Shown here piece by piece: positions 678 to 24,863 of a stretch of 25,859 nucleotides of DNA. The DNA is from Bodo saltans. Lineage: Eukaryota; Euglenozoa; Kinetoplastea; Eubodonida; Bodonidae. Location of the stretch: contig CYKH01002113.1 of the NCBI GenBank assembly GCA_001460835.1, forward strand, positions 4,460 to 30,318, in the 5' to 3' direction. The translations under genes were made by a program, and so were the position numbers. The notes beneath the pieces are model-generated. The model was not told the origin of the DNA. It worked only from the letters and a program-made list of their open reading frames with translations, and did no database searches. Each line of letters starts with the position of its first letter. The first letter of the stretch is position 1.

Positions 678-2908
678 ATGAGTTCTGAGTCCGTACCTGA
701 CGCGAAGGAGTTTGTGGAGGCCGCGTTTCAAACGGTGCGCCAGTACTGTACCTTCGCCTCGAGCTTTCCTACCAACGATGATTACGAATACCAAAGTGCG
801 TTTCGTGGCTTTCCCCGCCACGTGACGAAGCATGCGGATGCACTCCTCGACATTATGGATGCGTGCGTTGCTCAGATCCCAAAGAAGCGAAGGATTGTTC
901 TGTCCAGCAACTCCCTTCGTAGTGGAAATGTGTTGCAGGCCGCCCAGCGACACACTGCGATCATGGAGACTGTCGATTCCTTGCTGGAGAACGTTGACCA
1001 CCTGCTGGATGAGGCTCGTGGACAACGGTTGCACGGAGACGAGCAGCTTCAAGTTGCTTTTGGCTCCGCCCTCAACAGCGGTGCGTCTTCTGGCGGGAAG
1101 AGTGGACAGACACAGTCGGCGACAATTCTTCGCCCTCAGTTGACCTTTGAGACACCAGTTGATAACAGCCACGCGAAGTTCCGTGCAACTGTGCACCACG
1201 CCGACGGGAGCACTTCGCTCTGCGACGTCGATACGCACCCCTACGCGGAATTGATTGAGCAGTTTAAAGTTCCCACTCTGCAATTGCTCCCCACCGAAGA
1301 CAAACAGTACCTGCCCTTGGAGACCACACCGTTAACCTTTGTTGAGACTGTGGAGGGCCTCGATGCGTTGATTGCGGCGCTCTCTGCCTGTCGCGAGGTT
1401 GCTGTGGATTTGGAGCATCACGACTTCCGATCATTCCAAGGAATCACTTGTTTAATGCAACTGTCCACGCGATCTGAGGACTACATTGTTGACGTTCTGC
1501 GCCTTCGATCTCACATGCACCGTTTGAACCGAGTGTTTCTTGACACCAACATCCTGAAGGTGTTCCACGGCGCTAAGGAAGATGTGCGCTGGCTGCAGAA
1601 GGATTTTGGTCTCTATGTCGCCAACATGTTTGACACTGGCATTGCGTTGCAGACTCTTCACATGCCACACAGCCTCGCATTCGCTGTTGACCACTTCTGC
1701 GGAGTACGACTGGACAAGAAGTACCAGACAGCAGATTGGCGCATTCGACCAGTGCCCTCAGAAATGATTCACTACGCCCGCCAAGATACGCATTACCTCT
1801 TGTATGTTCATGACCGCCTTAAGGCGTTGTTGCTGCACGCAGAGGGGCGGGCATCCGTGGGGAACCTGCTGGTGCACGTTTACCAGGACTCCCGTCGCCT
1901 TTGTTTGACAAAGTACGAGAAGCCGATGCTGGATGTGGACACCACGTATCGCGAAGCAATGGGCAAGTCCTTAGGTGGTTTGTCTGCAACACAGCTAGAA
2001 GTATTGCGGGTGGTGTTCAACTGGCGAGACCAAGCGGCTCGTGATGCTGACGAAAGTCCTCCAGCGATCATGCACGCATCTGCTATTTTACAGATCGCGT
2101 CGAAACTTCCAACCTCCGCGAAAGAGATCCTTGCGTGCTGTGCCCCAGTCAGCCTGGTGGTTCGCCGTGACATTGGCCAGCTGTGCGAGCTTGTCAAGAA
2201 AACATTGACTGACAATGGAATCGACTGCGAGGCCAATGCCGCCACTCGCTTAGCCTCAGCACGTGCAGCTGGTCGAGTTGATCCTTTTTTTTTTTTTGCT
2301 GAGCACGTCGACGGAGTCCCCCAACAGTGATGTTACTGTCAGCACTGCCTTCACTCCATCGGCATGGTTTCGTGCGATGCAAGCTGTTGAGAACCGCACT
2401 GCTGTTTTTTTTTTCGCTGAGCACGTCGACGGAATCCCCCAACAGTGATGTTACTGTTAGTACTGCCTTCACTCCATCGGCATGGTTTCGTGCGATGCAA
2501 GCTGTTGAGAACCGCACTGCTGCCACAAGCAGTGACCCACTGGTTCCACTTCCAGGAGCAAATATTCTCGCTCGCGTAGCTGCAGCGCAAGAGCAGCAGC
2601 GCCAAGCCAACGCTGCCAAAGCCGCCGCGAAGCTTCTTGGCCCACTGCCAGAGACCTACGGCCGCAACGGCGATGAGAATGAAGAAGACTTGGACGCTGA
2701 CTGCATTCAATTCAGTCGCGAAGAAGAGGCTGCTGAAGGTTTGGAGACTCCTACTGCACCTGGAGCCAGCGATGAGGAAGTGCCGGCTAAGAAGCCTCAA
2801 ACTCTTGAGGACATGACGTCCGTTTATGAAGAGCTCGGCACTGGGCGATCAGGGCGGCGGAAAGCACAGAAAGAACTTGCGAACAAGAAGCGTAACCGAA
2901 ACGAATAA
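678..2908 (+). CDS. RRP6: RRP6/EXOSC10-like nuclear exosome 3'-5' exoribonuclease (frame broken by a tandem duplication)
   Basis: RRP6 is the DEDDy exoribonuclease that works with the nuclear exosome on rRNA, snoRNA and RNA surveillance substrates. From the ATG at 678 the protein has a PMC2NT-like helical N-terminus (about residues 10-60). The exonuclease domain follows, with motif I D244-L-E246 in VAVDLEHHDF, motif II D302 in HGAKEDVRWL, and motif III Y366 and D370 in YARQDTHYLL. An HRDC helical domain (about 435-510) and a low-complexity charged tail come next. All catalytic residues are present. The starting frame stops at 2328-2330, after a 13-T run. The tail continues in another frame to TAA at 2906-2908. 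A 118-bp tandem duplication (2287-2522) and the T-runs cause the break. Removing one copy and one T gives 704 codons, close to the family norm. Identity is secure; the frame break is probably an assembly or sequencing fault. Confidence 0.93.
2287..2522 (+). repeat. 118-bp head-to-tail duplication inside RRP6
   Basis: Copy 1 spans 2287-2404 and copy 2 spans 2405-2522. Each copy begins in a T-run and ends with GCTG. Apart from the T-run edge (a T at 2297 against a C at 2415) I count three differences: GAG/GAA, GTC/GTT and AGC/AGT. All three are synonymous in the frame that encodes STSTESPNSDVTVS. The period equals 1 modulo 3, so the second copy is read out of register with the first. Confidence 0.95.
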
Positions 2909-2945: not shown

Positions 2946-3320
2946 ATGAACGACGCACTAACGACGTCCAATATTAACACAACAATGGTTGAAGTGCAAT
3001 ATTATTTTGAACTCTGACGCTTTTTTTTTTGACGCCAACACAACTTGTTTGCTTGCTTGTTTGTTTGTTTTTGATGGTCGAGAAACCACTCAAGATTGAG
3101 AGGGTGAGCTCGTGAAAAAAGCGAACATATTGCACATCGCTCTCAAGAAAAAGAAAAGGACAGTTAAAGCGGCAGTTCATTTTCCAGCCAAGCAGTAGCG
3201 TTTACCAGTGTGGTCGAACCCTAATAAACGTTGCCGAAGGACAAAAGTAGCACTGAAGGTACGACCAAAAAAAGAAACACTTTACAACTTCTACGTGTGT
3301 ATTCCATTTGATATCACAAC
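2946..3320 (+). other. Intergenic region between RRP6 and the Sec7 gene
   Basis: This region holds a ten-T run (3021-3030) and a short TTGC/TTTG simple repeat (about 3046-3072). Both are candidate pyrimidine/U-rich processing signals for the Sec7 mRNA. The exact acceptor AG is unclear because several AGs occur between 3073 and 3272. A 13-codon upstream frame starts at about 3076. No other gene was seen. Confidence 0.5.
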
Positions 3321-6300
3321 ATGGCAACACTTGTCGTCGGCGAGTCAATCAACGTCAAAAGTATGTGGATTCCAGCGTTGGACGCAGTCTCAAAAGCTCT
3401 CGAAAAAGCTCGAGCTCTTGAAAGCAACAAGGAACAGCGATATCTCTTACGCCTTGTGTCCACAGAGATTCAGCAACAGCAACAGCTGCTGGCAACAGCA
3501 CCCTCAACTCCACGAGTGACCTCAACATCAACTGCTGTGGCTGCGGCGTCACCGCCAGCTTCCCCGGGGCGACCCACTTCTGCAGGGTCCGTTTCACCGC
3601 AGCGAGGACAGACAGGAGTCACGTCAGCTGCTAATGGTGCGCCTGCCGCTGCAACAACCAGCGGCATCGACGAGCTATCATTCACCATGAATCGTGTGGC
3701 AACAGTTGTGCGTGGCTATTTACTGCACACCCTCGCCCAGAACCGATCCAATCAGCGCATCGTGGAAGCAACGCTAGAGCTTTCACATGCGCTCCTCAAC
3801 AGCGGTGTTCTCCCAGTGGATGCTCAATGGGCACCTGCCAACATTCCGATCCCCTCTACTGTCAATGCATCGATGCTCACGAAAATGCTTGGTACATGGG
3901 GAAGTCGTTCGACGACAACAGAGCCCCATGCCGAGGGTAGTGCGGCACCGCATCCTCCTTCTATTGCGGCGGCAACGATGAATCCCTTCGACGAAATCGC
4001 AACGCTGAACGTGAAGGTGGCGTTGTGCGTCCCGAACCAGGTAGAATCACCAGGACTATACACCGCCATCACCTCGCTGCTCGGTGCGGTCGTACCAGAT
4101 CGGGTCAGCTGTATCGATCGAACATGCCCGCAGCAGACATCGTTCATCCCAAGTGGGTCGTTTATTGGGTTGAGTGGCCCAGCCCTTCAAACGCACGCAT
4201 ACCTGCTCTTTGCTCTTGCTGTCCGTGCCACTACGTCGAACATGCCGACGCTGCTGACGATCGTGAAGGGAGGGCTGTCGAGGCTCATTGGTGCCATCGT
4301 GAAGGAGTTGGATCGGCATCGCTGTCCGTGCCACTACGTCGAACATGCCGACGCTGCTGACGATCGTGAAGGGAGGGCTGTCGAGGCTCATTGGTGCCAT
4401 CGTGAAGGAGTTGGATCGGCATCACAATCGTTCGGTGCGAGGGTCTTCGATGGGCCCTCTCGCCGCGGACAGCACCAACCCCACCCCATCCACTCGCTCT
4501 ATCACTCCTACACCCACCACGTCATCGAATGCACTCAACCAACACTTGCGCAGCAGCAGTGCGGCCCCGCAGCAAGGAGGACGCTATGAACCCGCAACCG
4601 TCACGTTACATCATGATGTTGCCGTATTGATTGGCATTGCCACGTACTTCACGTCTGACACGTTGATGGCTGCGTCAAAAGATGACATCTCGAAGCTGAT
4701 TGCACTTGTTCCCATTTCGTTGACGAGATCCAGCGAATCCCGTGCCCTTTGCCTCACCTACATTTTGCAATTTTTTGTGAATGGTGGCCCAGGGATGCGA
4801 AAGAGCCCCATCCTGCTCCACTGTATTCAACAGACCCTATTCCCAGCGGTGCTGAAGACGGCCTTGTCAAATGAAATCGATGTGTACCGGTTGAGTCTCA
4901 ATATTCTCTACACCCTGTACAATAACTTCTACGCCGAGCTGATGGTTGAGTGTGGTATGTTCTTTCAGCACGTGCTGTTCCAAATCTTAGCATCCCAGAA
5001 TGCGAGCGTGTCGCAAAAAGTTCTTGCCCTAGAAGTCGTGAAGTTGATCGCCGAAGAGCCAAAGAATTTGCTCAACATGTACTTAAACTACGACTGTGAC
5101 ACGAATTCCACCAATGTGTATGAAACGCTTCTCTACCATCTCGACGTCCTCGCAACAGGAACATCAAAGCGAACACGTGGCGGCGATCAAGCAACTTCGC
5201 CTCTTGCCAAGACTACTGGGAGTAGTAGCACTGCGGCGTCCACAGGATCAACGCCCCCTCCCACCGCGGCACGTGTGCCTCAGCTGCAGCGTCTTGCACT
5301 CGACACGCTGCTGTGCATCGCCGAGGCCCACCATCAGTGGGTGGAACGGTTTGTTGAGGGTGGGACGAAACAACCGACCCCATCATATGTTGAGTCGTCC
5401 CCGAGCCCAAACGTTGGGGCTATGTTGAGCGAAGGCGATGTCGACACAAACGATGAAACCACCACCACCACCGCTGCATTGACCACTTCCCTCGCGCCAC
5501 ATTTCGTTGGCCTCGGCGCCATGGACGGCGACGGGGATTTACTCTCGGCGGAACCTTCCTACTCTAATTTCAGCGCATCTACCGTTACCATGAGCGGAAT
5601 GGACCTTTCGCATGTCTTCGACACCAAGAAAAAGAAGCGCCTGACTGAAAAGTTTCTCAAGCTGTTCAATACGGAAAAAAGTGCTGAGCGTGCTCTCGCG
5701 TTCCTAGAAGGAGACGGGCAAGATATCCTCCCCAGCGATGAAACACTGCCGGAGCCGTTAAGTCGTGACAGACGAGCTGCATCATATGCTGTGCTCAAGA
5801 ACACAACGACGAGTTTAGCGAATTCCATGATGACACCAGGAGGAGTACCAGCTGACCTCCCTCAGCTAAGCCCCAAGGCGAGTGATTCCCCCTCTGCACC
5901 GGCTGCAACACCTGCACACCCGCTCCTCGATGAAGCAGCTGAGTTTGCACAACGCGTGGCCGTGCTATGGTATTCGCTAGACGGTTCCTTGGACCGACTT
6001 GTTTTAGGTGATTTCTTTGCCAAAGGCTTCCGAAAAGAGTTACACCAAACGATCTTTAAAATGTGGATCGAGCTTCACGATTTCCGAAACAAGGCCATTG
6101 ACGTGGCGTTGCGTCAGTTTCTTGGCGGCTTTAAGCTCCTAGGAGAAGCGCAGGTGGTAGACAGGACGATGGAGGTGTTCGCGGCACATTATTGCCGCAT
6201 GAACCCTTCCGCGTTCAGTTCGGCGAATACCGCGTTTATTTTGTCTTTCACGATTTGCATGCTGAACACCGATGCCCACAGCATTCATGTGGTTGATAAA

Positions 6301-9300
6301 ATGTCCAAGGAGGCGTTTATCCGGATGAACAAAGGTGTCGATGATGGGAAGGACTTGGACTCAGAGTTGTTGTCATCGATCTACGATCGTATTACGTCGA
6401 AGGAGATCAAACTACGCCCGTTGAAGGCACGATCCCTCGCACACGGTGGTACCATGCACGGCACTCAGACGGGTGCTGCTGCGGCTGTAGGCCGCAAGAG
6501 CAACATTGCGGTCGCGGTGCTGGGCTCGATCCCTATCCTTCGTCGGCTCGTGCCAATAGCTGAGTCGATTGGTGATGCTGTTATGATCCCCGTGGACGCA
6601 GCAGGGAACATCCTCTTCAATACTGCTCAACGAAAGCGCTCTCAGAATTACTCTGCTGAGTTTCATGAAGTGTTCCGAGAAGCCATGTCGATGCTGCGTG
6701 AGCATCAGAACACCATCGGGGAGGGTTCGTTGACCGTGGACACCAACGACAGCGACCACCACCGTCGGCAGGGATCCATCGAAGGTACCAGCACGCCGTC
6801 ACTTAACGGGACTCAGAGTAGTATGATCATGTTTGTAGAAGCAGATAGCCTCGAGCACGCCCTGCCTATGTGGGATTTGACCGTGGAGATTGTCGTTGAC
6901 GCGTTACTCGTCGCTCTCCAAGAAGCGTGTAGTGTTGTCCGCTATGCCACCAAGGACGAGGTGGGCGCAGCAACAGGCGATGATGCAGCGGCGCAACATG
7001 GACTAGGCACGTCTCCACCGCTGGGACCGGAGGGGTCTGTGAGCAACGGCCACTTCGCTGAGACAAGCCCTGGGTACACCGAGGGCATGGCGCGCGTGGA
7101 ACAGTTGATCAAGGGAGTTCTCGTCACCGTTCGCGTCTGTGCAGCACTGGGCGCCCTCCCACACGCGCATCGCCTGCTGGAGCGGCTGTTCCAGCTTTCC
7201 ACTCTCCAGCAGGTGATTACCCTCCAACGGCATGATAAGAAACTTGCCGTGTGCACCGTCAAAGTGAAGCAACGCATCCCATCCGCATGCCTTCGTTGCG
7301 CAGTTGCAGTTCTCGAAGCGCTTGCAGTCAATGGCAACGTGTGCACAGCAGACATGTGGTCCATTGGATATCAAATCGTGTCGTACATCGACGCTCTCTC
7401 TACATTTCTGCGTGAGAATTCTCGCGTCTCCAAAGGCGAAAGTGGAGGGACGTCCCCAACAACCGGAGGCATGTATTCGAGCCGGAGATCGTTGCAGCAC
7501 GCCGTGAGCGTCAACTTGCCAACACCAAACGACGCGATGGCGACGGTTCCCGCGCCTCCAAAGAGTACTACGCTCCCGTCAACGCAGCCATCTGCCTTCG
7601 CCGCAGCCGCTGCGAGTTTATCTTCCGATGCCGCGCAGCCCTCCCACTTTGCCACAGCGGCAGAGTTACAAAAGTGTCAACAGATCCTCGATGACCTCTA
7701 CGCCGTCTCGCCATATCTTCTGTGGGTGGAGCGGCTCTACGACGTGACCAGTGCTTCGTCCCAGTCATTGCTTCAAATGGTAAACGGATTGTGCAAGGTG
7801 TGTGTGGAGGAACTTGAAGTGGGCCGCATCTTTTCCCTCAGCCGGCTAACGGAATTCTGCACGGTGTGCACAACAATCGTGTCGCGTATGCAATGGCGTG
7901 ACTTGTGGGCGAACTGTGAACCACTATTCGTGGCGGCAGGCTCCAAGGACAGCGCTATCGCACTCCAGGCCATCGATGGCCTCAAAGGCATTGCGTACCA
8001 TTATCTTCTCAAGGAGGAACTATCTCTCTACAAGTTCCAAAAAGAGCTGCTTCAACCGTTTGAGCGCATTCTCATGCGGAATAACGAGAAGGACGTCCGG
8101 GTCGCCATCATCCGTGCCGTGCATGACATGATTGAAAACCGCTCTGTTCAACTAGCTAGCGGGTGGAGTGTGATCTTATCGCTGCTCAGTAGGGGTGCAC
8201 TGATTCCTGAACTCGTGCATATGAGTTGGAGTGGGTGCAAGCAGCTTGTCACGCGGCATCTGCCACATCTGTCCGAGTGCTTCCACGATTTTATCTTTTG
8301 TCTGACAAGCTTTGCGAGCAACACTGCGGACGTGCACATTGCGTTTCAAGGCGCATCGTATCTCGTCGCGTGTGGAACGTGGTTGCAGGTGGGTCTTGTT
8401 CCTCTGCCTCCCTGCTTCGAGGAAGACGAGGACGCTGAGGAGGCGGCTGCGCTGAGATCACCGAGCGATAGTACCTCATCTGCACACAAGAGCTCTGTGG
8501 ATGGAGGAGATCGTGATGATGACAACACATCGATAGAAGGCTCCTCGTCATTGAATGGCTCCTCGATGCTGTCCATGGATGACGCCGCCTTAGCCCCGCA
8601 ACACGGCTATGACCTCCTGCAGGCATCCCTCGACGTCCTTGATCCTCCTCGACTGGTCGATGGGCTTGAGGCGTGCACATCAGTTGCTGCAATGCGAGCG
8701 TTATGCGAAGGAGGTGGATGCCACCTCGCACAGTTCTGTGCCTTGTCTCCAGAGGAGTGGCGAACGTGTTGCGTTCCGCCGACTCGTATGCACTTCTCAT
8801 CGCCTGATGAGGAATTGGATGTTATGAAGAGAGTTGTTCGAACTGCCGACCGACTTCGACGTGACGGATCTCAACTTATCCCGAAGTTTGAGGTGCTGTG
8901 CCGAGCCCCGAGACCTCCCATGCCGCTAACGGTTGCTGGGAGCCCAGCGAATTTAGTTCAGCACGACTTCGGATTCTCGATTACTGGAGCTGACTTTGTG
9001 CCGAACTTATCATGCACTGCGGCTGGGTTCGCTGCCACGGCACCGGCAGTCAACCGCACTTGCGCACCTCTGCCCGCGCTGTCATCTACTATGTTTGGCG
9101 AGGGTCCGGTGCAGCGCGTTCTGGAATCCGATGAACCCATCTCGGCAACCCGAAAGCTTGTACGTCCCACCGACTTCACACAGCGCACTGAGTACAACCT
9201 GTGGGCTTCTCTCTTCGAAGGACTTGTGCCCATCATTTTTGCCCATTCCGACACGAGAGCACGACTGCACGCAGTGCGATGCCTCTGGGAGCTCGTACGT

Positions 9301-11409
9301 AGATTCGCAAGATTCTTCGACAAGGGAGTTCAACTGTCGTTGCTGTCGCCTCTCCTGCGATCGGCTGTGTCGGCGTTGGCTACGGACGAAACCCTTCTTC
9401 CTCAGTCACCTCGTGCACGGCGAAGCAGCGTCGCATCGCCTGCTGACATCGGGTCCTCCCACCCACATGGTGCACAGCAACAAGCGCTCTACCGAAAGTA
9501 TCGTGGCATCATGCAGACGTCCTTGAGGGGAATGCTCTACGCATGCTCCACAGATGCTCACTTGCTGACATTGGCGTGTGACTCCATCCAACGAGCTGCA
9601 ACCTACGCTAAGAATCCACGGTGCCTCAAGGCAGGCTTGGTATCCGTGCTGGTCAGTCTCGTCTCTGAAGCGTGCAGTCCTACTAGCTCTGCATGTGTGA
9701 GTGGTGACGATGCTCAGGTCACTGCACTCACGCAGTCTAATGTAAGCTGGTGGATCACCCAAGCGCACCCAGAGGTGTTCCGTATTGCCAAAGGGCATGA
9801 GCTTCTTGCAGGGATTGTAGAGCGCAGCTTGCTGCCATCCGTCATGGAGGCGTGGGATGCAAGTGTCAGTGAAAGTGCGGCTTCTTTCGGTGGGGGACAT
9901 GGGCTTATCGAATGGTTGCCCTCGATGTCGTCCGCACGTCAGATTTGGGATCTGTGCGCCACTCTGGCGAATCGTAATAGTTCCATCGACTCTGGCAATG
10001 CCGTGCGTTGGGCAAACACACTACGTGGCGCCGCCCAACGTCACACGGAAACGTTGAGCACGTCAACACGAATGTTCACAGCCACTGCACGTTACTTAGC
10101 GTCGCTGCGCCGCAAGTCGTCTAGCCTCGTTGCCACCCCCGCGGCACTTACAGAGACCTCAACTATTGACGGAATGCAGCTCATCCTGCCCTCGGCAATG
10201 ATCGTTCCTTCGTTGTGTCTGTTCCTGAAAGAGTCCCGCCCTAGCCCAATGACAGCAGACATGTTCACCACGACTCGTACCCTAGTCACAGGACTATTAG
10301 ATGCGATTACATGGACCAGTGAGGTGCTGTGGGGCCTTGGTCCAAACGTAGGCCTCTTGCAGAGCTCGCTCCTTACGCTACATCAACACAATCAGGATCT
10401 TAAGTCGGCAGCAGGTGTGGCAGTTCTTGCGTCTACCGATGGCGGCGCCGCTGAGAGACAGCACAGGAGGCGCACGTTCCAGTGGCTTGCCACATTCTCA
10501 TACCAGACATTTGCGGCCACGATGAATTACATTGTCACAGCAGCGGCCATCGACGGCCTCACGCCCTGCGGCCAGCTGTTAGAGCCTCAGGAACTGCTCG
10601 CACTTATTCCTCGGCTACCGAATCGCGGGGACCTGACATGGGACGCCAGAGGCAGTTTATGCCAAAGCATTGAAGAACATGTCTTGGCCCTCGAGTCCTT
10701 AGCGCCATCTATCGAAGACGCCATCGTTGCGGGGGGAAGCAACATCAAGACCGGAAACAGCTGGAAGTGCCCTCATGCATCAGTGATGCTGGATCGCGTT
10801 GTGCTTCTGATTCGACGCACCTCCTCTGCTGGAGGGGCAGGAGTTGACTCTGATGATTCGGATGCGAGCACTAACGGCAGTGATCAACACCAAGACGATG
10901 ACGATCTTGATGCGGCCCAACCCCCTCGGATGGTACTTCAAGGGACCTTGTCGTCAGCGAGCAGCACCGTATCGGATTTGCTCGCTAGCGCGACTGTGAG
11001 GGCTGCTGAAGACCCGATTCCAAGTATTGAAGTAGAGACCATTGAGGACGATGAAACGCCCCCTAACGTGAGCACCGAGGAGAACACTGGAGACCTTCCA
11101 GCCGCTGAGAAAGCTGCCAACGTGACGAACGATGAGGAGAAGGCGGATGAACCAACGACTGCTGACGTTCAAGAACATGAAGCGCCCGCCACACCTCGAC
11201 TCCTGGCCGTCGAAAGCGTCGATGTTGCCGGAACACATGCCACATATGACGCTGATAGGACCTCACCAGAGGCGGTTGCCGAAGACGCTGCAGCTGCACA
11301 AGCAGCCGAGGAGGTTGTAGATGCCGCGGAGGAAGCGGCTCTGTTGAAAGTTGCAGAAGGTGACCTGCACTCAACAAGCGACGACACGACGAACGATGAC
11401 TTGCGATGA
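3321..11409 (+). CDS. Large BIG/Sec7-type ARF guanine-nucleotide exchange factor (frame broken by a tandem duplication)
   Basis: Large Sec7 proteins load GTP onto ARF GTPases at the Golgi/trans-Golgi to recruit vesicle coats. The gene starts at ATG 3321 (MATLVVGESINVKSM). A 103-bp duplication (4218-4423) shifts the frame, so the first frame ends at 4589 and the rest is read one base later. Without one copy the gene is exactly 2662 codons, longer than the usual 1,600-2,000 residues. In that numbering an N-terminal DCB-like region is followed by the HUS box NYDCD (555-559; 5086-5100). The Sec7 domain (about 840-997; 5941-6411) has the glutamic-finger motif GEAQ with E908 (6145-6147) and the second motif MLNTDAHS. 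Long helical HDS-like regions follow. Several Ser/Thr/Ala-rich linkers interrupt the protein, and the tail (10840-11409) is rich in Asp, Glu and Ala. Whether it is closer to BIG or GBF is not settled. Confidence 0.92.
4218..4423 (+). repeat. 103-bp perfect head-to-tail duplication inside the Sec7 gene
   Basis: Copy 1 (4218-4320) and copy 2 (4321-4423) appear identical by eye. Both start GCTGTCCGTGCC and end GATCGGCATC. The flanking bases differ (T before copy 1, C before copy 2), which fixes the boundaries. The period equals 1 modulo 3. The segment encodes SNMPTLLTIVKGGLSRLIG in the conserved frame, and this peptide appears in both of the broken halves of the protein. Confidence 0.96.
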
Positions 11410-11774
11410 AGAAGTCATGAGGGAGAAAGTGAACCCTGAGAAAGAAAAAAACAACAACAATACAAAAACACAAAAGTGAAGGGAGATGAAAAATGGGTAA
11501 AAGACTGAGTTGTTGCTGCATGGAGTGTTGCTTTCATTGTTGAATATCCGCAGACACCAGTCCCATCATAAGGCTTTGCTGCGTCCCTATGCCGATTGCT
11601 TCGTTTTGAGCGTGATTTTTATTTATTTGCGTCAATCCTCGTGCGAATTATTATTTGTGTTGAGCGATGCTTGGTGATGCTATTTGTTTTGTTCTCTTGC
11701 ACTCTCGTTCTTTCTTTCTTTCTTTCTTTTTTTTTAAATTTATATGTGAGAAAGTAGCCTGTGCTCTAAGAAGA
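11410..11774 (+). other. Intergenic region between the Sec7 gene and the membrane-protein gene
   Basis: A purine-rich, A-rich stretch (about 11430-11500) just after the Sec7 stop is the likely 3' UTR. A pyrimidine-rich acceptor (11706-11757) sits near the end. An ATG at 11667, in frame with the next gene, lies upstream of the tract and is not used as the start here. No other gene was seen. Confidence 0.5.
11706..11757 (+). promoter_or_regulatory. Probable spliced-leader acceptor for the membrane-protein gene
   Basis: A TTTC-repeat tract running into nine Ts (about 11706-11735) is followed by AGs at 11749-11750, 11753-11754 and 11756-11757. The next ATG is at 11775. An ATG-TGA pair at 11744 would be excluded by splicing at any of these AGs. 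This supports 11775 as the start and leaves a signal peptide at the N-terminus. Confidence 0.65.
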
Positions 11775-12503
11775 ATGAAACTGAGTTCACAGTCGCTTTT
11801 CTCAATGGTGTTATCCTTCATTATTGTCCTTGTCGTGATCCTTAGCCCACATTCTGTGGACGCCTTGTCGGCAGCTGCACAGGCGTACATTACAAACAGT
11901 TTCTCAGGGTCGAATGTTTCTTGCGACGCGACCTTCGACGAAACCAACTGCTCTCTCACGCAGAACTGCCTGTGGAACGCGTCGAACACAAGTGCGACAC
12001 CAAACGGGACATGCTATCGCAAGACGGCACTTGTCACCATCAATTCCACAAACTCCGAAGGCGTGCGCGATAGCTGGTGCTACGAGTACTTCCCGCAGTG
12101 GTTCATTGCGACTGTGTATTTCCTTTGCACCCTCTCAACAGGGTTTGCCATTGCGGGCATGTGGTACAACTACAAGTACTACGACGTGTACGTCATTATG
12201 ATGGATGGAGAGCGGCTTTACAATAAATTCTATTTCAAGACATCGCCCATCAACGTCTACCTTGCCGCTCTCGTCGCCACATCATTTATGATGTTCTGCG
12301 CAGCGTGTGCGTATTTCAATGACCCGTACTTGTGCTCTTATGTGGGATTCGTCATCGTGTTCTTGATTGTATGCCTTGGCGTACCATTTATTGCGCTGAT
12401 TGTGTACATTGTGTGGTGTATCATGGAGTACTTGAATCGTAGGGAGATGAATGTGAATCAAGAGGCTCTTCCAAAGTACAACAACCAAGTCCGGTGCTTT
12501 TAG
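11775..12503 (+). CDS. Signal-peptide, N-glycosylated three-helix membrane protein, family not recognised
   Basis: This 242-residue protein starts at ATG 11775. It begins with a hydrophobic signal peptide (about residues 1-30, ending near SVDALS). A lumenal or extracellular domain follows, with several N-glycosylation sequons (NVS, NCS, NAS, NTS, NGT, NST) and a cluster of cysteines with the pattern C...C...C-L-W...G-T-C. That pattern loosely recalls a small PSI-like module. Three strongly hydrophobic segments follow (about residues 118-140, 158-178 and 188-213). The cytosolic tail is short and ends VRCF. The predicted topology is lumenal N-terminus and three membrane spans; the third is long and may be irregular. 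I do not recognise the family, and no enzymatic motif is visible. Secretory-pathway or plasma-membrane location is inferred from the signal peptide and sequons. Confidence 0.8.
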   Translation: MKLSSQSLFSMVLSFIIVLVVILSPHSVDALSAAAQAYITNSFSGSNVSCDATFDETNCSLTQNCLWNASNTSATPNGTCYRKTALVTINSTNSEGVRDSWCYEYFPQWFIATVYFLCTLSTGFAIAGMWYNYKYYDVYVIMMDGERLYNKFYFKTSPINVYLAALVATSFMMFCAACAYFNDPYLCSYVGFVIVFLIVCLGVPFIALIVYIVWCIMEYLNRREMNVNQEALPKYNNQVRCF

Positions 12504-12641
12504 TCATGTGAGAAAAAAAAGAACGGAAAACCAGACGAGCATCAGACAGCTCTGTCTTTTGTGTGATTGTGTCTTTTGCTCTTGTGAAAGAGTGAAGCTG
12601 TGCATTAAATGAACGTGGAAGACCAGAAATAGTTATAGTAG

Positions 12642-12672
12642 CCCCCCCTCCCCCTCCTTCTCTAACCCTCAG
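12642..12672 (+). promoter_or_regulatory. Polypyrimidine tract with AG, candidate trans-splice acceptor
   Basis: A C/T tract broken only by a single AA (12642-12670) ends in AG at 12671-12672. It is too far from the next start (12959) to be an obvious sole acceptor. It could define the poly(A) site of the upstream gene or an alternative acceptor. Confidence 0.5.
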
Positions 12673-12716
12673 CACATCCATTTGTTCACCGCTGCAAAAC
12701 ACAAGTTCCAGTGGAT

Positions 12717-12754
12717 ATTTTCTTTCCTCCTTTACCACATTTCGCCCCTTTCAG
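12717..12754 (+). promoter_or_regulatory. Polypyrimidine tract with AG, candidate acceptor for the WD40/coiled-coil gene
   Basis: A T/C-rich tract ending TTTCAG puts the AG at 12753-12754. Splicing here would leave a leader of about 200 bases containing short upstream frames. Splicing at the weaker AG at 12921-12922 would give a clean 36-base leader. Both are possible. Confidence 0.5.
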
Positions 12755-12958
12755 TACGATCAATGAATTAGCGTGCTGCCCCCTCTTGATGCGATAGCAA
12801 AAATGTATGTCTTACCTGTGACAAATGCTTCATTTGTTGCTATTATTATTAGGAAGGATCCATATTCTGTAGTTGTTTCTAGATATTTCTCGCGCGGAAG
12901 GTGTTGAGTGCACATTCCACAGTACACATCACAACGTGACTGACCGATTCATTTATTC

Positions 12959-15900
12959 ATGAGACGCCAACATTCACCTGGCGTCTCGTCGTCAACGCGG
13001 ATTGCCTCGTCAGCGTCATCGAGGCATGCAGGTGGTGGTGGCGCACACCGTCCTCCAGCAACGCATCAGCTGCTCCCAGCGGATCTGTTTGGCATCACAT
13101 CGAGTGCTTCTGCCCGTCACATGGACGCAACTTCCATCGGCTCACACGGCGTCTCTTCTTTTGCATCGCACAACACGCCCCTACGTCCCACCGTGCAAGG
13201 GATGTGCTTGGTGCCGCACCACGAAGAGTTGTACTGCGCAGAGCACCCATGCAAAGTGACAGTGCGCTCTGCCGTGCCCTCCACGAAGTTCCACGCTAAG
13301 ATGGTGGTGGAGATTCCGCTGCCTCACCCCGATGCGTTCTTCCGGTCGCTGCACTATGTGGCCGGGCCTAACGGGTCAGATGGCTGGGTGTGGTGCTCCG
13401 CGTCTAGCGGTGAGTTGGTGGCTGTTCATACAATCACGAAGAAGTATGCAATGATTGCAGATACTGGTTCCCTTTTGGACGCAGGACCTATCGCAGCGTT
13501 GGCGGACTTCTGGACACTTTCTCCCATCCCAGGATCGTTGCAGAGAACGCTAACAGACACTCCTCTCGATGGCCTGCAGCCCCACCGACATCGAGTCGTG
13601 GTGTCCATTTCTCGTGCTGGTGTCGTAGGACTATGGGATATGACAACGCGCACCCTCTTCGCCAAAGTTCAGTGCTCACTCCCCACAACAAGCCCCTCCA
13701 CCTCCTCATTCCTATCAATGGTGGGGCCCACCAAGGCAACTCCTATTCACAGGCAGCCTACTTCCCATGGAAACCAGATGCGGGTGAAGTGCAGTAGCAG
13801 TTGGGCCTCCGCTGGTATCATCTTCGTGGGAGTGGGCGTGACGAGCAGTGCTGGTGGGCCCAATCTGAGCGGACTTGTGTATGTTGTCGATGGTCGCCGA
13901 TTGTCTCACACAACAAGCGCCCCGCTGATACTGCCCAACACCGGCAGTGACGACGTCGAGAACGATGGAGAGTTCACAGTTCCGTTATTGGACGGCGCTG
14001 TGCTGAGCATGGCCTTTGAACCCAGCCCCCATTCCCGTGATCAGGGTGCTCTGTGGCTCTCCACAAGCACCGGTGCAGTGGGGAGAGTGGACTGTGGGGC
14101 TGCATCTGGTGCTGGTGTCGAGGGCAGCGTCGTTGCGTACAACGTGAGATGGCGCCGCGGCGTGCACGACGGGTTTAGTCACAAACTATGTCTCAGTGGC
14201 GCTCAGCATGCTGTTTCCTGTGGTAGCGATGGTCGCGTCGCCATTCTTGACGTCGACACGCTCAATATCATTCAAAAGGTGACTTTAGACATGGGCACGA
14301 TGGTGCAAGAACTTTGTAGCTTGGGCGAAACCGCGGCGTCTAGTGGGTCGGTATCGATGCTCTTAGCAATTTCCGACCGTACATTCCGATGTATGAGCTT
14401 GAAACGAAGCGGGCCATGGACGAGTGGATCTCGAGGGAGCTCGCCGATTCGAGGATCTCCTCGACGTCGTGCCTCACCATCGTCTCCGTTGCGCTCTTCT
14501 CCCTCTGGCCGACGAGGCTCTCTCCACCTGGCAGTGCCGCTAGGCGGAAGTAGCTCAAGCTTTGCGTCGCTTCACACCGGTGCCACCACACCACTCACTA
14601 CCCAGCAACTCCTGTACCACTGTATGACCTTGCTGCAAGGGCTCAAGAGCGTTGAGGCAGCAGAGGTGGACGCTCGTAGCAGCTTCATGGAATCCGAGTT
14701 GGTCGCTCGGGATATGCTCTACCACTACTGGGACTATTTATGCTGTGGGGGTCGCACGCACCAACTCCCAAGCCGCTTGTGGTTTGTGCAGCTTCAGGAG
14801 GCGGATACAAGACTGTACTGGCAGCAGGAAGCGTACTTGGAGCTGCGGCACACGCTGAAGCAATGCAACCTGCACTGGAAGCGTGCCTGTGATCGGCGGG
14901 AGGTGGTGTGGAACTGGTGCTGGGATGAAGAGGAGGAGCGTCACCGGCGTGATCTTGTTCTTCACGCCGAGGCGACCGAGCGCATCGCTCTCCGAGACGG
15001 CCTTCATCAACTTGGCCGAGCTGCTGCTACGGCGACGCAGCGCCGCCTTGAGAGGCTGGCTCACGATGAAACGCTAGACAAGCTCGAAACTGCACTTGTG
15101 CGGTTAACGGAGTTGGAACCACTAGCGGCAAAGGTGGCACCCCTCCAGGGAGATCTGCAGCGTATGGTCCTTTCGTTATCGTCTGTTAACGAGGCATGCC
15201 AGGAATTGGAAGATGGACGAGTTCGTCTCGAATCCTGTCAACGAGGCATGCCAAGAATTGGAGGATGGACGAGTTCGTCTCGAATCAGAGCTCCGGAGGG
15301 CTCGCAGTGATTTACAACACCGGGAGACCACTTCGCGTCTTGATGGGCATCGAATGTTCTTAGATGCGGAGGATTTGCAGCGGCACAAGATTCAAGAGGA
15401 GGCCGCGTCCCACGTGGCCCAACTTCTCAGCGCTGCACGCAGGGAGGAGGGCAAGATGCTTGCAGCGGCTCATCATTTACTGCGAGAGGACCGCACGCAC
15501 ATCGCTTCCCTTCAGCAGCATCGTTCCACGCTTGAAACAGTCTCCATTCACCTTCAACGTGATCTGCGCGATGTGGAGCTCACTCGCGACGGCCAGCGTG
15601 CCGCTCATCGCAGGTTCGAGGAACAGGTGCAGTCCTTGGAGGAGCAGCTCGCAGAGATCACCAGGCGCCTCACCGTATCGGAGGAGCACCGTGCGGTGAC
15701 GGAGCTGGAACTACTACGAACAAAGTCGTCAGCGGAGCTTCATCGGTCGAGACTTGAGCAAAGTTCCAGTCTTGCCGAAGACACATTTAAAACAGTCCTT
15801 GCGCAACGTGAGCGCATGCAAAGCCTCAGGCATTCACTTGACGCGATCCAAGAGCGACTTGAAGTATTTGTTCGACTAGGTGAGGATACGTTTGATGCTG

Positions 15901-16343
15901 GCATCACGGAGCGCAGAATACACAAGGCTCGGTCGGCGCTGCAGGAGGCCCAAGAAGATCTCATCGCCATTCGGCGTGCGGAAAGTCATCGATGGACAAG
16001 TCTGGAAAGTGACATGGCAAATACGTTAGGCGATTGGATGCGACATACTCACGCAGCAGAACGAGAACAGTCTTCATCACGACTTTCTATTTCTGCCTCT
16101 CGTCCACGTCCTGCAGAGGAACCTCAAAGCACGGATCATCATCCCAACGACCATTTCGGTGGTCCCACAGCGTTGCGCACGCAAGAGCATCTCTATCACG
16201 CGTTTGAACAAGTTCTTAGTGCGGCGGAGCTGATTGGGCCGCGGTGGATGGAGGAGGTATTGATCATCGATAAGGCTCAATTCTTTGATGCTCTCCGGAA
16301 ATCGCTTTCTGTTCTTGCTGCTGCTCGTGGTGTTGATCCATAG
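12959..16343 (+). CDS. WD40-like propeller plus coiled-coil protein of unknown function (frame broken by a tandem duplication)
   Basis: The start is ATG 12959 (MRRQHSPGVSSS). A Ser/Ala/His-rich N-terminus (about 60 residues) leads into a region with degenerate WD40-like blades. Examples are VVSISRAGVVGLWDM and HAVSCGSDGRVAILDV. A basic Ser/Pro/Arg-rich linker (about 14401-14530) follows. From about 14640 to the stop there is a long charged, Glu/Arg/Leu-rich coiled coil. A 52-bp duplication at 15183-15286 shifts the frame, so the first frame stops at 15310 and the real one continues to TAG 16341-16343. Removing one copy leaves exactly 1111 codons. Propeller-plus-coiled-coil layouts are common in ciliary, centrosomal and trafficking scaffolds, but I cannot assign a family. 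The continuous coiled coil across the break supports a single protein. Confidence 0.8.
15183..15286 (+). repeat. 52-bp head-to-tail duplication inside the WD40/coiled-coil gene
   Basis: Copy 1 is 15183-15234 and copy 2 is 15235-15286. They differ at three bases: GTT/GTC, CAG/CAA and GAA/GAG. All three are synonymous in the frame VNEACQELEDGRVRLE. The period equals 1 modulo 3, so the duplication breaks the gene. Confidence 0.95.
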
Positions 16344-16688
16344 CGAATACGTCTCCTCGGACAGATCGAAGCGTTGCTGTTTGTACTATTTCGTTTCGCT
16401 TATCTGAAGTTTAGCCAGCAATGATGAAACCTGCTCATGAGCGTGAGCATCTCACGTTTTCTTGTTTATGTGTTCTCACTTGAGTAGAATCAACTGTCGA
16501 GAAGAAGAAAAAAACACACAGGAAGAGGAAAACACAAGCGACACACAGACTCTCGCGCCTTTCCGAGGGAACCTCTGTACGTAGCTAACATTCCCACCCT
16601 TGAAAAAAAGTATTGTGAACTGAAGCCACAATCAAACAAAAGCAGATTCATCAAATCGTTAAAGGCGTCACTGATTTCAACAGGGCAT
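16344..16688 (+). other. Intergenic region between the WD40/coiled-coil and PP2C genes
   Basis: The 3' UTR of the upstream gene includes a short inverted repeat around GCTCATGAGC (about 16434-16443). An A-rich stretch (16500-16535) follows. The sequence ends in TTTCAACAG with AG at 16682-16683, six bases before the PP2C ATG, which makes it the likely trans-splice acceptor although its pyrimidine tract is weak. No gene was seen. Confidence 0.5.
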
Positions 16689-17996
16689 ATGTCAGACAAC
16701 GATGGATCACGTGCCGCTGCACCGCATCAACCCAACAACAACAACGCTGATGCAGACGATGAGGTTGTACTAGTAGGAAGTCCCCCCACCACACCAGAGC
16801 CCGCATCTATTCTGACGTCACATCACAATCACAAACATTCTAGTGAACCCCACCACCACCACCATACACATGCCGGCGCCGTAGGGATCGCCCCGCTGAA
16901 CACCGGAGAGTTAGCTGCAGGAGACAACAGCACGCCGGAAGTGTCGTTCTATTCTACCAAGAAAGAAAAGGCAGTGTGGCGAATGATCGAATATGGCGTC
17001 TCGTCTGAGCAAGGGACTCGTAAAACGATGGAAGATCAGCACAAGGCGATGCTCAGCACTGACTTAGTGACCCCTCGGGACCGTTCTGCTCCACGCCTAG
17101 CTATGGGAATTCCGTTTTTCGGAGTGTACGATGGCCATGGCGGGCAACAGTGCGCTGAATTTCTACGCGAGAATTTGCACACGTTCATCTTGTCCGTAGG
17201 GTCACAAGCGCTGCTAGGGGTCGCACGGTAGTTCCTACCACAGCTCCTCCGCCTCTTTTAAAAATACCTCTTTACATCCTGACTTGCTTAGCTTAGACCT
17301 TCATGTCACCGGGTTGCGCTTGTTGTCGAAGAGCTCCTCTTCACAGGCAACGTCGGCGATTCCGAAATTGTACTGTGCCGCAACGGTACTGCCAAGGTTC
17401 TCACGGTCAAACATACACTTTCGGCTAGCGAAGGTGAGGTTGAGCGTGTGAAGGCTTGCGGCGGAAGAATTTTCCACTCCCGCGTCGGCCACCCCAAGTT
17501 CAATCCTATGCTAGTGAGCCTCGCCGTTTCCAGAGCTGTCGGAGATGCTGGGTTTAAGCTAGAGGAGTACACCGACGGAAAGGCCTCTGGGCTTATTGCC
17601 GATGCAGACACCAGCGTCACAGAATTAGAACGTGATGACGAATTCATTATTATTGGGTGCGACGGCGTCTGGGACGTGCTGTCGTACCAAGCCGCAGTGG
17701 ATTTCTGCAGGAAACTCATCACCGACGGCCACGACACACAGCACGTCACAGAGCAACTCTGTCAAGAAGCGCTTAGACTCGGCAGCACCGACAACGTCAC
17801 TGCATTATTTGTCAGTCTCAAGTGCCGACCAGGGTCTGCTGGAGGTGGTAGACCCACGAGTGCTACGCAACGACCAGCGAGTGCTGCTAGCGCCCGCCGA
17901 GGGTCAACATTCGAGGATGCGACTCCCAACGCGGCTGCTCACCACGCAGGCCCGAAGCCACCGATTCCTCAAGCGCCACAGTCGTCGTCGTCGTGA
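16689..17996 (+). CDS. PP2C-family Ser/Thr phosphatase with a disrupted middle segment
   Basis: PP2C (PPM) enzymes are Mn/Mg-dependent Ser/Thr phosphatases. The start is ATG 16689. The N-terminus is disordered and His-rich (five consecutive His near residue 59). The first half carries RKTMEDQH and FFGVYDGHGGQQCAEF, including metal-ligand Asp/Glu residues. The second half carries GNVGDSEIVLC, SLAVSRAVGDAGFK, DEFIIIGCDGVWDV and GSTDNVTALFVSL, then a Ser/Ala/Pro-rich tail. The halves share a frame, but TAG at 17229-17231 and further stops to about 17291 separate them. One other frame is open across the gap and encodes SSASFKNTSLHPDLL, which resembles the helix expected there. Two compensating indels, near 17218-17231 and 17305-17313, would therefore explain the break. 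The cause may be sequence error, an incorrectly filled gap or recent inactivation. The family call is firm; whether the gene is functional is unknown. Confidence 0.85.
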
Positions 17997-18525
17997 GAGA
18001 GGCAACACTTGCATTTTTATCGTTGCTTGGCGCCAATTTTTAGGAGTGTGAAATGGAACAAAAGTGTGGGCGCAAACGAAAAACACAACCAAAAACAAAC
18101 GAAACATGAAAAAACCAACAAACACAACACAAAAATATCCAAAACGAAAACCACAAACAAAACAAAACAGCAATCAACCAGAAACACAAACTGTTCAAAT
18201 GAAGGTTATCTTACGAGTGCATGTGTGAGCTTTGCAGATGTGATGCGATGCGATGTGAGACGTGACGTTGGCATGATGAATGAAATACACGCGACCCTTA
18301 TTGTGACGCTTTTGTCGTGATTTGCACTGAAGGGTGCTGCAATTTCTTCGCTATGTTGATGGACCTCATTTAGCACCCCACCCCCCCTCGTCGCTCACCT
18401 TTTCTCCCCCCTTCGTTGCCAGTGCGTAGATCAGCACACAAGCGTGGAGTCCTTGAGACCATTGATGCACTATCTTTGTGACGCGCTGATGATTCACGAA
18501 TCCTTGCTTCGTTGCTTTGATAACA
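17997..18525 (+). other. Intergenic region between the PP2C and SEH1-like genes, with an A/C-rich block
   Basis: The 529 bases start with the PP2C 3' UTR. A block at about 18071-18190 is almost only A and C on the + strand. A short GATGC/GATGT run lies at about 18238-18257. The strong acceptor at 18375-18422 follows, then a leader of about 100 bases with ATGs at 18465 and 18489 in another frame. No RNA gene was recognised. Confidence 0.5.
18375..18422 (+). promoter_or_regulatory. Strong spliced-leader acceptor for the SEH1-like gene
   Basis: A long C/T-rich tract (about 18375-18418) ends in GCCAG with AG at 18421-18422. It is one of the strongest polypyrimidine-AG signals in the window. It lies 103 bases before the chosen SEH1 ATG at 18526. 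The intervening ATGs at 18465 and 18489 are out of frame with SEH1. Confidence 0.65.
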
Positions 18526-21926: not shown

Positions 21927-24863
21927 ATGGACGGAGATCTCAACTCAAACCAGCAAGAGCTTGGCGACGTCTCTGACGTGACCCACTCGACCGCCTTCCT
22001 TAGCATCGATGCCCTTCTCGAAGAGGGTAAGATTGTTGAGGAACGCGCAGCCCATCTGAAGTCTAAGTTCAAGGAGCTGCACGATCGAGTCCTCCAGATC
22101 TACAACCACGACAACTTCCTGCTGAAGCGTGCACGCCAATCTAGGAAAGACCTCGAATTAGAGAAGGCAAAAGTGGACCGCTGCGGCCAAGTGGCACGCC
22201 AAGACGATGATGCCATTCAACAACTGAAAAGGGAGCTTGCCGCGGCGGAGCACGAGCTGTCCGTTGCCCAAGAAAAAGAGTCGATGCTGCAAGTGGAAGC
22301 GCTCGAGCTTGACCGGAAGAAGCAGAACTTGACCCATGAAGTAGAAGATGCCATTGCTGCGGAAGAAGCACGTCTGAAGCCTCAAATCGAAGCACTCAAC
22401 AAGACGATCAAAGACATCGGCGAGGAGATTGAGAATACCTCCAAGGAGTTTGATATTCTGCGCAACAAACGCGAGGGTCTCTTGGGCAACGAGCGGCAAC
22501 TCCGTGAAGATGCAGAGCATACGGATGTTGTGATTTCTGAAGCGAAGTCAGAGTTTGCACGAGTAGAGAAGGAGCCTGATCGCGCAAGAAAGCAAGCAGA
22601 AATTGTCCTAAAGGCATTCCTCACCGCACAGAAAGAGCTTGGCTCACTTGATGACAAGGTCAGTGGCCAAGTAGACATGATCAACAAGCTCGAGAGCAAG
22701 AAGAAAGATACGTCCGAGGAACAAGCCGATGCTGTCGCCGCTCTTCAAGTGAAACGTGGAGAGATTGCAGAGAAGCTGAAGACCCTCGGGACAATTAGTG
22801 CGTCCCTTGAGGGTGAGATCGAAACGCGCACAGCGTACCAGCAGCGTGTCCAGGAACTCGAAGGGCTCATCAAAGCCGCCGCTGTGGCGTTCAACCAAGA
22901 GCGTGACTTGCTCAACAAGACGATCCGAGACAAGGACAAGGGCATGAAAGACTTCAAGACCATCGACCAGGCCAAGGCAGACTTAGAGTCCGAGAGGGAA
23001 GTCTGCAAGAAACAAGTAGAATTCTTAGGACGTGAAGCCCAGCGCCTCAGCGGTCAACGTAAACAATACGCCTCTGAGTTGGAGGAGATGAAGCGTGACG
23101 TGGATATTCTGATCAACAACTTCCTCAAGGAAGAAATTGCGGAAAAGCGATGCGTGAAGGACAAAGAGAACATTCAGTCCAGCATCCAGCATCTCGAAGA
23201 CTTACTCGCCGAGCGCAGCCTTCAAGAGCAGGCACACAAACGAGAACTGTCGGAGCTCGCCATGCACCGAGAGCAGATCAGCCGTGAGTGCAGTCGAAAC
23301 CAAGGCCGCGTCCTGCTCGCCAAGAATGAACTGAAGGTCAAAGAGGTCATTTTACGCGAGCTCCGCAAGCGACACGATGAAATGCAAACTCGCCTTACCT
23401 CGCTCATGGAGATGTTCCAGAATGTGAAGCGTGAGCGCAGCCAAAAGGCAGCACAGATTCAGTCCGCAAGTCAACGTATGAGCGAGATGCAGGAAAAGAT
23501 TAAGATTCTGGAGAATGAACTCGAAGTGCTGCGTCGTGAGAGTCTCATCAAGGACTCGGAACTGTCGCGAAAGAAGCGTGAATCGCATGAACTGCGCCAG
23601 ACATGCAAGAATTTGCGCGTCGACAAAAACAAATGCAAGAAGAAGTTAGACGAAGCCGCCAACGTAGAACGCGACCTCAAGAATCAAATGCGCAAGTTGA
23701 ACAACGTCATCACCATGACCGAAGACGAGATGTTGGAATTGAAGCGTGCGTACGAGGATGCGGTGGAGAACCGCAACTACACCGGTATCCAACTAATTGA
23801 TCGCAACGATGAGCTCTGTATCCTCTACGAGAAGTCCAACATTCAAGAGTCTATCATCAAGAATGGATTGTTGATGATCAACAAACGTTCAGAGGAGATT
23901 CGAGCCTTGACTGTGCAGCTGACCGATACCCAACGCCAAATTGAACTCTGTCAGCGTGTCCTGCCCCAAGTGCGGGATATGGAGGAGGACCTTGCGAAGT
24001 TAGTGCAAGATTTAGAAGATGAGCGATGGCGCGCATCTGTATTGGAGTCAGACCTAACAGACCCGCTCAACCCCTCTCGCTGGAGGAAGCTCGGAAAGGT
24101 CGGCACATCAACCAACGGCGGCTCCACGAAAAAGAGTGACGGGAATGCTGCAGATGACGATGGTGCGGCTGACAAGGCGTCCCCATCGGCAAGTGTGGCT
24201 GCCGCCAGTGTGGCTGCCGCCGCTGCCGGCAACGAGGGGCCTAGCGAAGAGTTTGTGGAGTTACAATCCAAACACCAATCCCTAGAGCAGCGTGTTGCCA
24301 CCGTCAACGAACGCTTGATGGAGAAGGAATTGATTCTTGAGGAGGTCACCGAGCTCTCCAACAAACTACGTCGCCAAGCGCTCAATGGCCGAGACTTTAC
24401 GTTAGCCCTCGCTAAGAAGGTGAACAACTACCAATTTGACATCAAGAACAAGACAAAGAAGATGATGGCCACTCTATCGGAGTTGTCCATGGTGCAGGCG
24501 TCGTCTATTCAATTGCAAATGGAAGTGCAGCAGCTTGAAGACACGGTTTCTGAGGCTCACCGTCGCACAGATATCGGCGAGGCGCCCACGGACAATATCG
24601 CTCAGCGCCTGGAGCGCGAAGAGAGGAGTAAGCAACGATATCAAACCCTGTTGCAGTCGCGACGTGAGGCTTCGGCAGTCGCAGAGAACCTTCTCACGAC
24701 GGCTGAGCAGCGACCCAATGCTTATATTCCTGAAGGTGACCTTAACCTCCCGAAGCCGTACGGCATGCACGCGCCGTTCAAGCCGAACATGGCAGTCCAA
24801 GGGCAGGTGAGCAGGTACTACCGCAAGACGCAGCAGAAGGACCTAGACTTTGGCGATGACTGA
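21927..24863 (+). CDS. CCDC146: CCDC146/MBO2-like flagellar coiled-coil protein
   Basis: The 978-residue protein is almost entirely coiled coil, rich in Glu, Lys, Arg and Leu. Several short stretches match what I know of CCDC146 (Chlamydomonas MBO2). They are YNHDNFLLKRAR near the N-terminus (about residue 55), LYEKSNIQESIIKNGLLMIN (about 635-655), LNPSRWRKLG (about 713-722), and the C-terminal signature RPNAYIPEGD...LPKPYGMHAPFKP (about 929-953). Its length is close to the animal protein (about 955). CCDC146 and MBO2 are linked to axoneme and centriole microtubules and to flagellar beating, which fits a flagellated protist. An Ala/Ser/Gly-rich insert with a short repeat, SVAAASVAAAAAG, interrupts the coil at about 753-765. 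The frame is intact. The start follows a clean leader. Confidence 0.85.
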   Translation: MDGDLNSNQQELGDVSDVTHSTAFLSIDALLEEGKIVEERAAHLKSKFKELHDRVLQIYNHDNFLLKRARQSRKDLELEKAKVDRCGQVARQDDDAIQQLKRELAAAEHELSVAQEKESMLQVEALELDRKKQNLTHEVEDAIAAEEARLKPQIEALNKTIKDIGEEIENTSKEFDILRNKREGLLGNERQLREDAEHTDVVISEAKSEFARVEKEPDRARKQAEIVLKAFLTAQKELGSLDDKVSGQVDMINKLESKKKDTSEEQADAVAALQVKRGEIAEKLKTLGTISASLEGEIETRTAYQQRVQELEGLIKAAAVAFNQERDLLNKTIRDKDKGMKDFKTIDQAKADLESEREVCKKQVEFLGREAQRLSGQRKQYASELEEMKRDVDILINNFLKEEIAEKRCVKDKENIQSSIQHLEDLLAERSLQEQAHKRELSELAMHREQISRECSRNQGRVLLAKNELKVKEVILRELRKRHDEMQTRLTSLMEMFQNVKRERSQKAAQIQSASQRMSEMQEKIKILENELEVLRRESLIKDSELSRKKRESHELRQTCKNLRVDKNKCKKKLDEAANVERDLKNQMRKLNNVITMTEDEMLELKRAYEDAVENRNYTGIQLIDRNDELCILYEKSNIQESIIKNGLLMINKRSEEIRALTVQLTDTQRQIELCQRVLPQVRDMEEDLAKLVQDLEDERWRASVLESDLTDPLNPSRWRKLGKVGTSTNGGSTKKSDGNAADDDGAADKASPSASVAAASVAAAAAGNEGPSEEFVELQSKHQSLEQRVATVNERLMEKELILEEVTELSNKLRRQALNGRDFTLALAKKVNNYQFDIKNKTKKMMATLSELSMVQASSIQLQMEVQQLEDTVSEAHRRTDIGEAPTDNIAQRLEREERSKQRYQTLLQSRREASAVAENLLTTAEQRPNAYIPEGDLNLPKPYGMHAPFKPNMAVQGQVSRYYRKTQQKDLDFGDD

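Follow-up and report, generated by a model that had tools for sequence, protein, structure and literature searches.

False duplications from overlapping haplotype contigs have been documented in genome assemblies, for instance as the duplicated overlapping contigs of Kelley and Salzberg 2010 (PMC2864568). In an Illumina-based hummingbird assembly, long reads revealed erroneous tandem duplications, including a 22 bp erroneous tandem repeat beside a gap at FOXP2 exon 6, which is absent from the long-read assembly (PMC5632298). The signs of false duplication described elsewhere include half depth and, for copies on one scaffold, a gap (PMC9516828). Here we compare these cases with a 118-bp tandem duplication in the RRP6 gene of Bodo saltans. 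The gene lies in a stretch of 25,859 nucleotides of contig CYKH01002113.1, which we call the window, and all of our positions refer to it unless another sequence is named. From the sequence, we think it very likely that the 118-bp duplication is an assembly artefact, and its origin is probably allelic. An artefact of this type is an ordinary error and gives no proof of a broken RRP6.

Tandem Repeats Finder reported 2287-2522 as 2.0 copies of a unit with period 118 and a 96% match. This bears out the two copies given in the preliminary description, which lie on the plus strand at 2287-2404 and 2405-2522 (from repeat detection and a copy-by-copy comparison). The copies adjoin directly and are 96.6% identical. 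A second repeat search placed the pair three bases to the left (2284-2401 and 2402-2519). In 20 first-order Markov resamples of the window, there was no tandem duplication with a period of at least 20, so the pair is not a chance repeat. We also ran the detector on 200,000 bases of E. coli K-12, and it found no match within a gene. (The single match there has 2.4 copies and lies between fre and fadA. As a finished bacterial genome, E. coli tests the detector and not kinetoplastid biology.)

Comparing the copies base by base, we found that four sites separate them. Three of these, 2316 G / 2434 A (GAG/GAA), 2340 C / 2458 T (GTC/GTT), and 2343 C / 2461 T (AGC/AGT), are silent in the frame STSTESPNSDVTVS, as had been claimed. 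The fourth, which had also been noticed, is 2297 T / 2415 C, at the end of a T-run. There are 13 T before GCTGAG in copy 1, and copy 2 starts within its T-run, with 10 T and then C. This site is not silent (Leu/Ser in the coding frame), so the claim that the copies differ only at synonymous sites holds for the three coding sites but not for the T-run. In the remaining two frames of the unit, the copies are 3 and 4 residues apart and stops are present, which makes the coding frame of the unit certain. By itself, the silent pattern in RRP6 is weak evidence: three random transitions would all be silent with P = 0.034, and with the T-run site counted, at least three out of four would be with P = 0.11.

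The gene is spread over two open reading frames on the plus strand. The upstream ORF (576-2330) has its likely start at the ATG at 678 and ends early, with FFFFAEHVDGVPQQ followed by a stop. It contains the PMC2NT, DEDD 3'-5' exonuclease, and HRDC domains in that order (PF08066, PF01612, and PF00570, each scoring above the Pfam cut-off), as in an RRP6 / EXOSC10 exoribonuclease. Its best PDB matches are 4nlc and 4nlb, which are both T. brucei RRP6 (PMC3928423). The downstream ORF (2303-2908), in which copy 2 is read as STSTESPNSDVTVS, has no Pfam match of its own; it does have a coding score by codon usage, and we take it to be the C-terminal tail. With the unit counted once, about 700 codons separate the ATG at 678 from the stop of the downstream ORF.

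According to the codon-usage score, RRP6 is coded in frame 2 upstream, in frame 0 through the body of copy 1, and in frame 1 from copy 2 onward. (For RRP6, the codon model was trained on other genes within the window; parts of the Sec7 gene and of the gene with the 52-bp pair, both described below, were among the training data and were then scored with the model.) There are two frame steps, one at the T-run of 13 T ahead of copy 1 (2285-2297, plus strand) and one at the copy junction, where 118 = 1 mod 3. We considered whether the duplication could be the whole cause of the frame break, but this is ruled out: going from the upstream to the downstream frame takes a change of 2, and 118 = 1 mod 3, so the second step is made at the T-run, where the coding frame shifts independently of the duplication. 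The T-run is either miscounted or of unequal length between two alleles. The preliminary description had one copy out of frame. The frames do differ, but there are two causes, and it is the T-run step, not the duplication, that sets copy 1 off from the upstream ORF.

A gene whose frame is lost at two places, the T-run and the copy junction, could be a truncated or pseudogenised RRP6 that holds an old genomic duplication, with the out-of-frame copy decaying. However, there is a single frame, common to both copies, in which three of the four differences are silent, and the codon signal is coding up to the break and straight after it. Also, the two parts of RRP6 total about 700 residues, which is near the 736 residues of T. 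brucei RRP6 (PMC3928423). We consider an old duplication extremely unlikely; the silent differences together with the codon signal led us to reject it.

Two other two-copy duplications with a period of at least 20 are present in the window, both on the plus strand, like all of the ORFs that we took as genes there. (Kinetoplastid gene arrays likewise share one strand.) The first is a 103-bp pair (4218-4320 and 4321-4423), whose copies adjoin and are 100% identical. It lies in a gene for a Sec7/BIG-type ARF-GEF with HUS, Sec7, and HDS domains (Pfam), and the frame changes from a left ORF at 3312-4589 to a right ORF at 4303-11409. (A PDB search with the N-terminal part of this gene gave no match.) The second is a 52-bp pair (15183-15234 and 15235-15286), whose copies adjoin and are 94.2% identical, in a gene without a Pfam match that looks coiled-coil-like by eye. 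Its three differences (GTT/GTC, CAG/CAA, and GAA/GAG) are all silent, and the frame changes from the ORF at 12944-15310 to the ORF at 15126-16343. Counting the pair in RRP6, all three of these duplications (3/3) sit within ORFs and break the frame.

Some other features of the window are worth recording. A 15-bp unit in a CFAP58-like gene has two identical in-frame copies (24192-24221); the frame is kept, unlike in the three longer pairs. In a PP2C phosphatase gene (17220-17325), the frame is left at about 17228 and regained at about 17322, and in between, a different frame is open and has a coding score (SSYHSSSASFKNTSLHPDLLSLDLHVTG), which suggests two small indels. Scans of the window for tRNAs and for Rfam families gave no matches.

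To see how frequent such pairs are, we ran the detector (period at least 20, identity at least 0.88, and 3-mer entropy above 3.3) on 205,958 readable bases of the assembly, or 180,099 without the window. The outside sample is made up of contig starts (18 contigs chosen by hand and 10 drawn from 80 that had been listed at random) and of one further stretch from the contig that holds the window; L001 was omitted, as it repeats sequence of the window. Repeats that were too short were excluded (L019, with a period of 17; several with a period of 12; and the 15-bp pair). The output was ten rows, nine of them two-copy duplications. The tenth, which we set aside, is an array of about 6.3 copies at L008:8391-8861, with a period of 75 (a multiple of three) and copies that are about 96% alike; it has the look of a genuine repeat array and differs in this from the two-copy cases.

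Seven of the nine two-copy duplications are located at an ORF frame change, including four of the six outside the window. The four are in L003 (224 bp, at L003:8481-8930, flanked by ORFs of 155 and 100 aa), L009 (70 bp; 124 and 270 aa), L013 (38 bp; 91 and 610 aa), and L020 (28 bp; 596 and 489 aa). The corresponding ORFs in the window are of 584 and 201 aa for the 118-bp pair, 425 and 2,368 aa for the 103-bp pair, and 788 and 405 aa for the 52-bp pair, so across the seven duplications the ORFs span 91 to 2,368 aa and the periods range from 28 to 224. The other two pairs were not counted as coding: L011 has a period of 24, a multiple of three, and lies in a 118-aa ORF of doubtful status, and L017 has a period of 37 with no convincing gene. 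The frequency was uneven: all six outside pairs came from the first batch (130,455 readable bases), and the second batch, made up of the last ten contigs (49,644), had none.

In six of the seven frame-breaking pairs, the unit has one and the same frame whether it is read as copy 1 in the left ORF or as copy 2 in the right ORF. Only RRP6 departs from this, owing to its T-run. A fresh real duplication would also be expected to give same-frame reading; the point is that each ORF continues through one copy. The coding scores cover the window pairs; around the four outside duplications, no Pfam domain decided the copy number. Among the eight ORFs there, the one match above the cut-off was PF23002 in the left ORF of L020, which does not cover the duplicated unit. 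Below the cut-off, DUF1104 matched the two halves of L003, and L013 had a match to a CFAP65 Ig domain; the scan of the L009 ORFs gave no match. The small ORF in L003 has a hydrophobic start (by eye) and the C-terminal residues HEEL.

Each RRP6 copy carries a T-run with an AG a few bases after it, an arrangement like that of a kinetoplastid splice acceptor. This raises the idea that the duplication is functional, either because the repeated polypyrimidine tract and AG serve as an alternative trans-splice acceptor or because one unit is removed as an intron. But the 103-bp and 52-bp pairs have no such tract, and AGGT, which would be needed for precise GT-AG removal of one copy, is absent from all three window units (by eye). 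Nor did we see, by eye, a boundary motif that is shared by the seven duplications with their various periods. We give this idea almost no credence: the missing AGGT in the three window units and the missing T-run in the other two led us to reject an intron or a repeated splice acceptor.

The evidence that some of these copies are alleles comes from their differences. Three of the seven duplications have copies that differ at all, at four sites in RRP6, three in the 52-bp pair, and one in L009 (AAC/AAT, which is silent). All eight differences are transitions, and seven of the eight are silent in the ORF's frame. For a transition taken at random in these units, the chance of being silent is 0.32 to 0.35; this gives P = 0.0005 for 7 silent out of 7 and P = 0.0024 for at least 7 out of 8. 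Where the unit cannot be in frame twice, silent divergence implies that both copies were coding as they diverged, and so that they were alleles. The silent excess is what is expected of alleles, and not of a copy that is decaying out of frame. In the other four duplications (the 103-bp pair, L003, L013, and L020), the copies are identical and so are uninformative about alleles. Because of these four pairs, heterozygosity is not required, and the common cause would be an unmerged overlap, with heterozygosity as an occasional contributor. The proposal in the preliminary description that the assembler joined two alleles in tandem is the best reading, and it gains indirect support, less from the three RRP6 sites than from the seven of nine pairs at frame changes and the seven of eight silent differences; but alleles need not be the general cause, as four of the seven pairs are identical.

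Abutting copies with silent differences would be explained as well by a real and recent tandem duplication, made by unequal exchange between homologues, as by an artefact. Both alleles would then be on one chromosome, with an intact copy on the other. The preliminary description had named this alternative too (a recent copy from the other homologue). A broken RRP6 is also possible in itself, as Rrp6 is non-essential in yeast (PMC3928423). On the other hand, the same type of event would need to have broken seven ORFs in 205,958 readable bases, and even the sample from outside the window (4 in 180,099 bases) corresponds to about 20 ORF-breaking events per megabase. We searched the readable part of the assembly (29,294,288 bases in 934 contigs) and found no second match to 2200-2600, 4430-11400, or 11400-18400, and no intact second RRP6; the lack of second matches is expected if alleles were collapsed. 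We consider unequal exchange improbable. If the duplications were all real, then this protist would continually make short inter-homologue tandem duplications in its genes and would carry many alleles with broken frames, and intact product would come from the other homologue or from correction at the RNA level, which strikes us as more improbable still.

We propose instead that overlaps between contig ends were left unmerged when the contigs were joined in scaffolding or gap closing, and that some of the joins set two alleles side by side. This is the best account of the pairs. In RRP6, we infer that one contig ended with ACCGCACTGCTG (2404) and that the next started within the T-run (2405), at a point that would truly lie about 118 bases further upstream. 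The contig ends would then have been set edge to edge in scaffolding or gap closing, with the overlap left unmerged. At the joins in RRP6 and in the 52-bp pair, the ends may have come from different alleles, which would be why these copies have silent differences. As a place for a contig to break, the T-run is plausible, and it would separately hold a length error or an allelic length difference.

The Bodo saltans draft has been described as 39.9 Mb in 2,402 scaffolds with an N50 of 31.5 kb, assembled from Illumina data by means of Velvet (k=41), SSPACE, GapFiller, and IMAGE, followed by ICORN correction and REAPR splitting (PMC4728078). If that draft is the source, then ICORN and REAPR, as listed there, would have left such places in, which counts against an artefact. 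There is also no N gap between the copies, or any N in the window, and this counts against an artefact unless the gap was closed, so our account needs a closed gap. As the whole cause, an artefact of this type faces two further difficulties: the difference in the T-run is a non-silent one, and the frame of RRP6 is left unexplained by the duplication alone. A search of the readable assembly for a spliced-leader pattern found no match, which has little weight because the assembly searched seems to consist of contigs of roughly 10 kb and upward. Our literature searches on gap closers that make tandem copies, on a long-read assembly of Bodo saltans, and on assembly errors in this species turned up nothing usable.

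Compared with the known false duplications, the pairs in Bodo saltans are like duplicated overlapping contigs in being near-identical neighbours with allele-like differences, and some of the published cases touch coding sequence (PMC2864568). They are unlike them in that our copies are gapless and only 28-224 bp, and the cases treated in that report were decided by mate pairs, while ours are judged from sequence (PMC2864568). The hummingbird errors are also short tandem copies in gene regions, but they are from another organism and were compared with long reads, and there is no gap beside the copies here (PMC5632298). The pairs in RRP6, the 52-bp unit, and L009, with their allele-like differences, resemble heterotype false duplications, and the identical pairs (103-bp, L003, L013, and L020) resemble homotype ones; the survey that set up these classes used k-mers and read depth (PMC9516828), while the likeness here comes from the copy sequences, with the gap absent. 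Nearby stretches of high identity, which mark unmerged overlaps, are present (96.6%, 100%, and 94.2% for the three window pairs); visible contig ends or a gap are not, as the window has no N, and gap closing would remove them. We suggest that the pairs work like unmerged-overlap false duplications in which the gap has already been closed. We put this forward as a likeness and make no claim on formal membership in that class.

Two-copy duplications that break ORFs occur about once per 30 kb if the window is included (7 in 205,958 bases) and about once per 45 kb without it (4 in 180,099 bases). The second figure is fairer because the window was picked for holding one. Two copies, a length that is not a multiple of three, and silent differences together make a cheap screen that needs no reads. 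The value of the finding is mainly as a warning about the assembly, and as biology it is low. Gene models, pseudogene counts, and claims of gene loss for this species could be wrong at such places.
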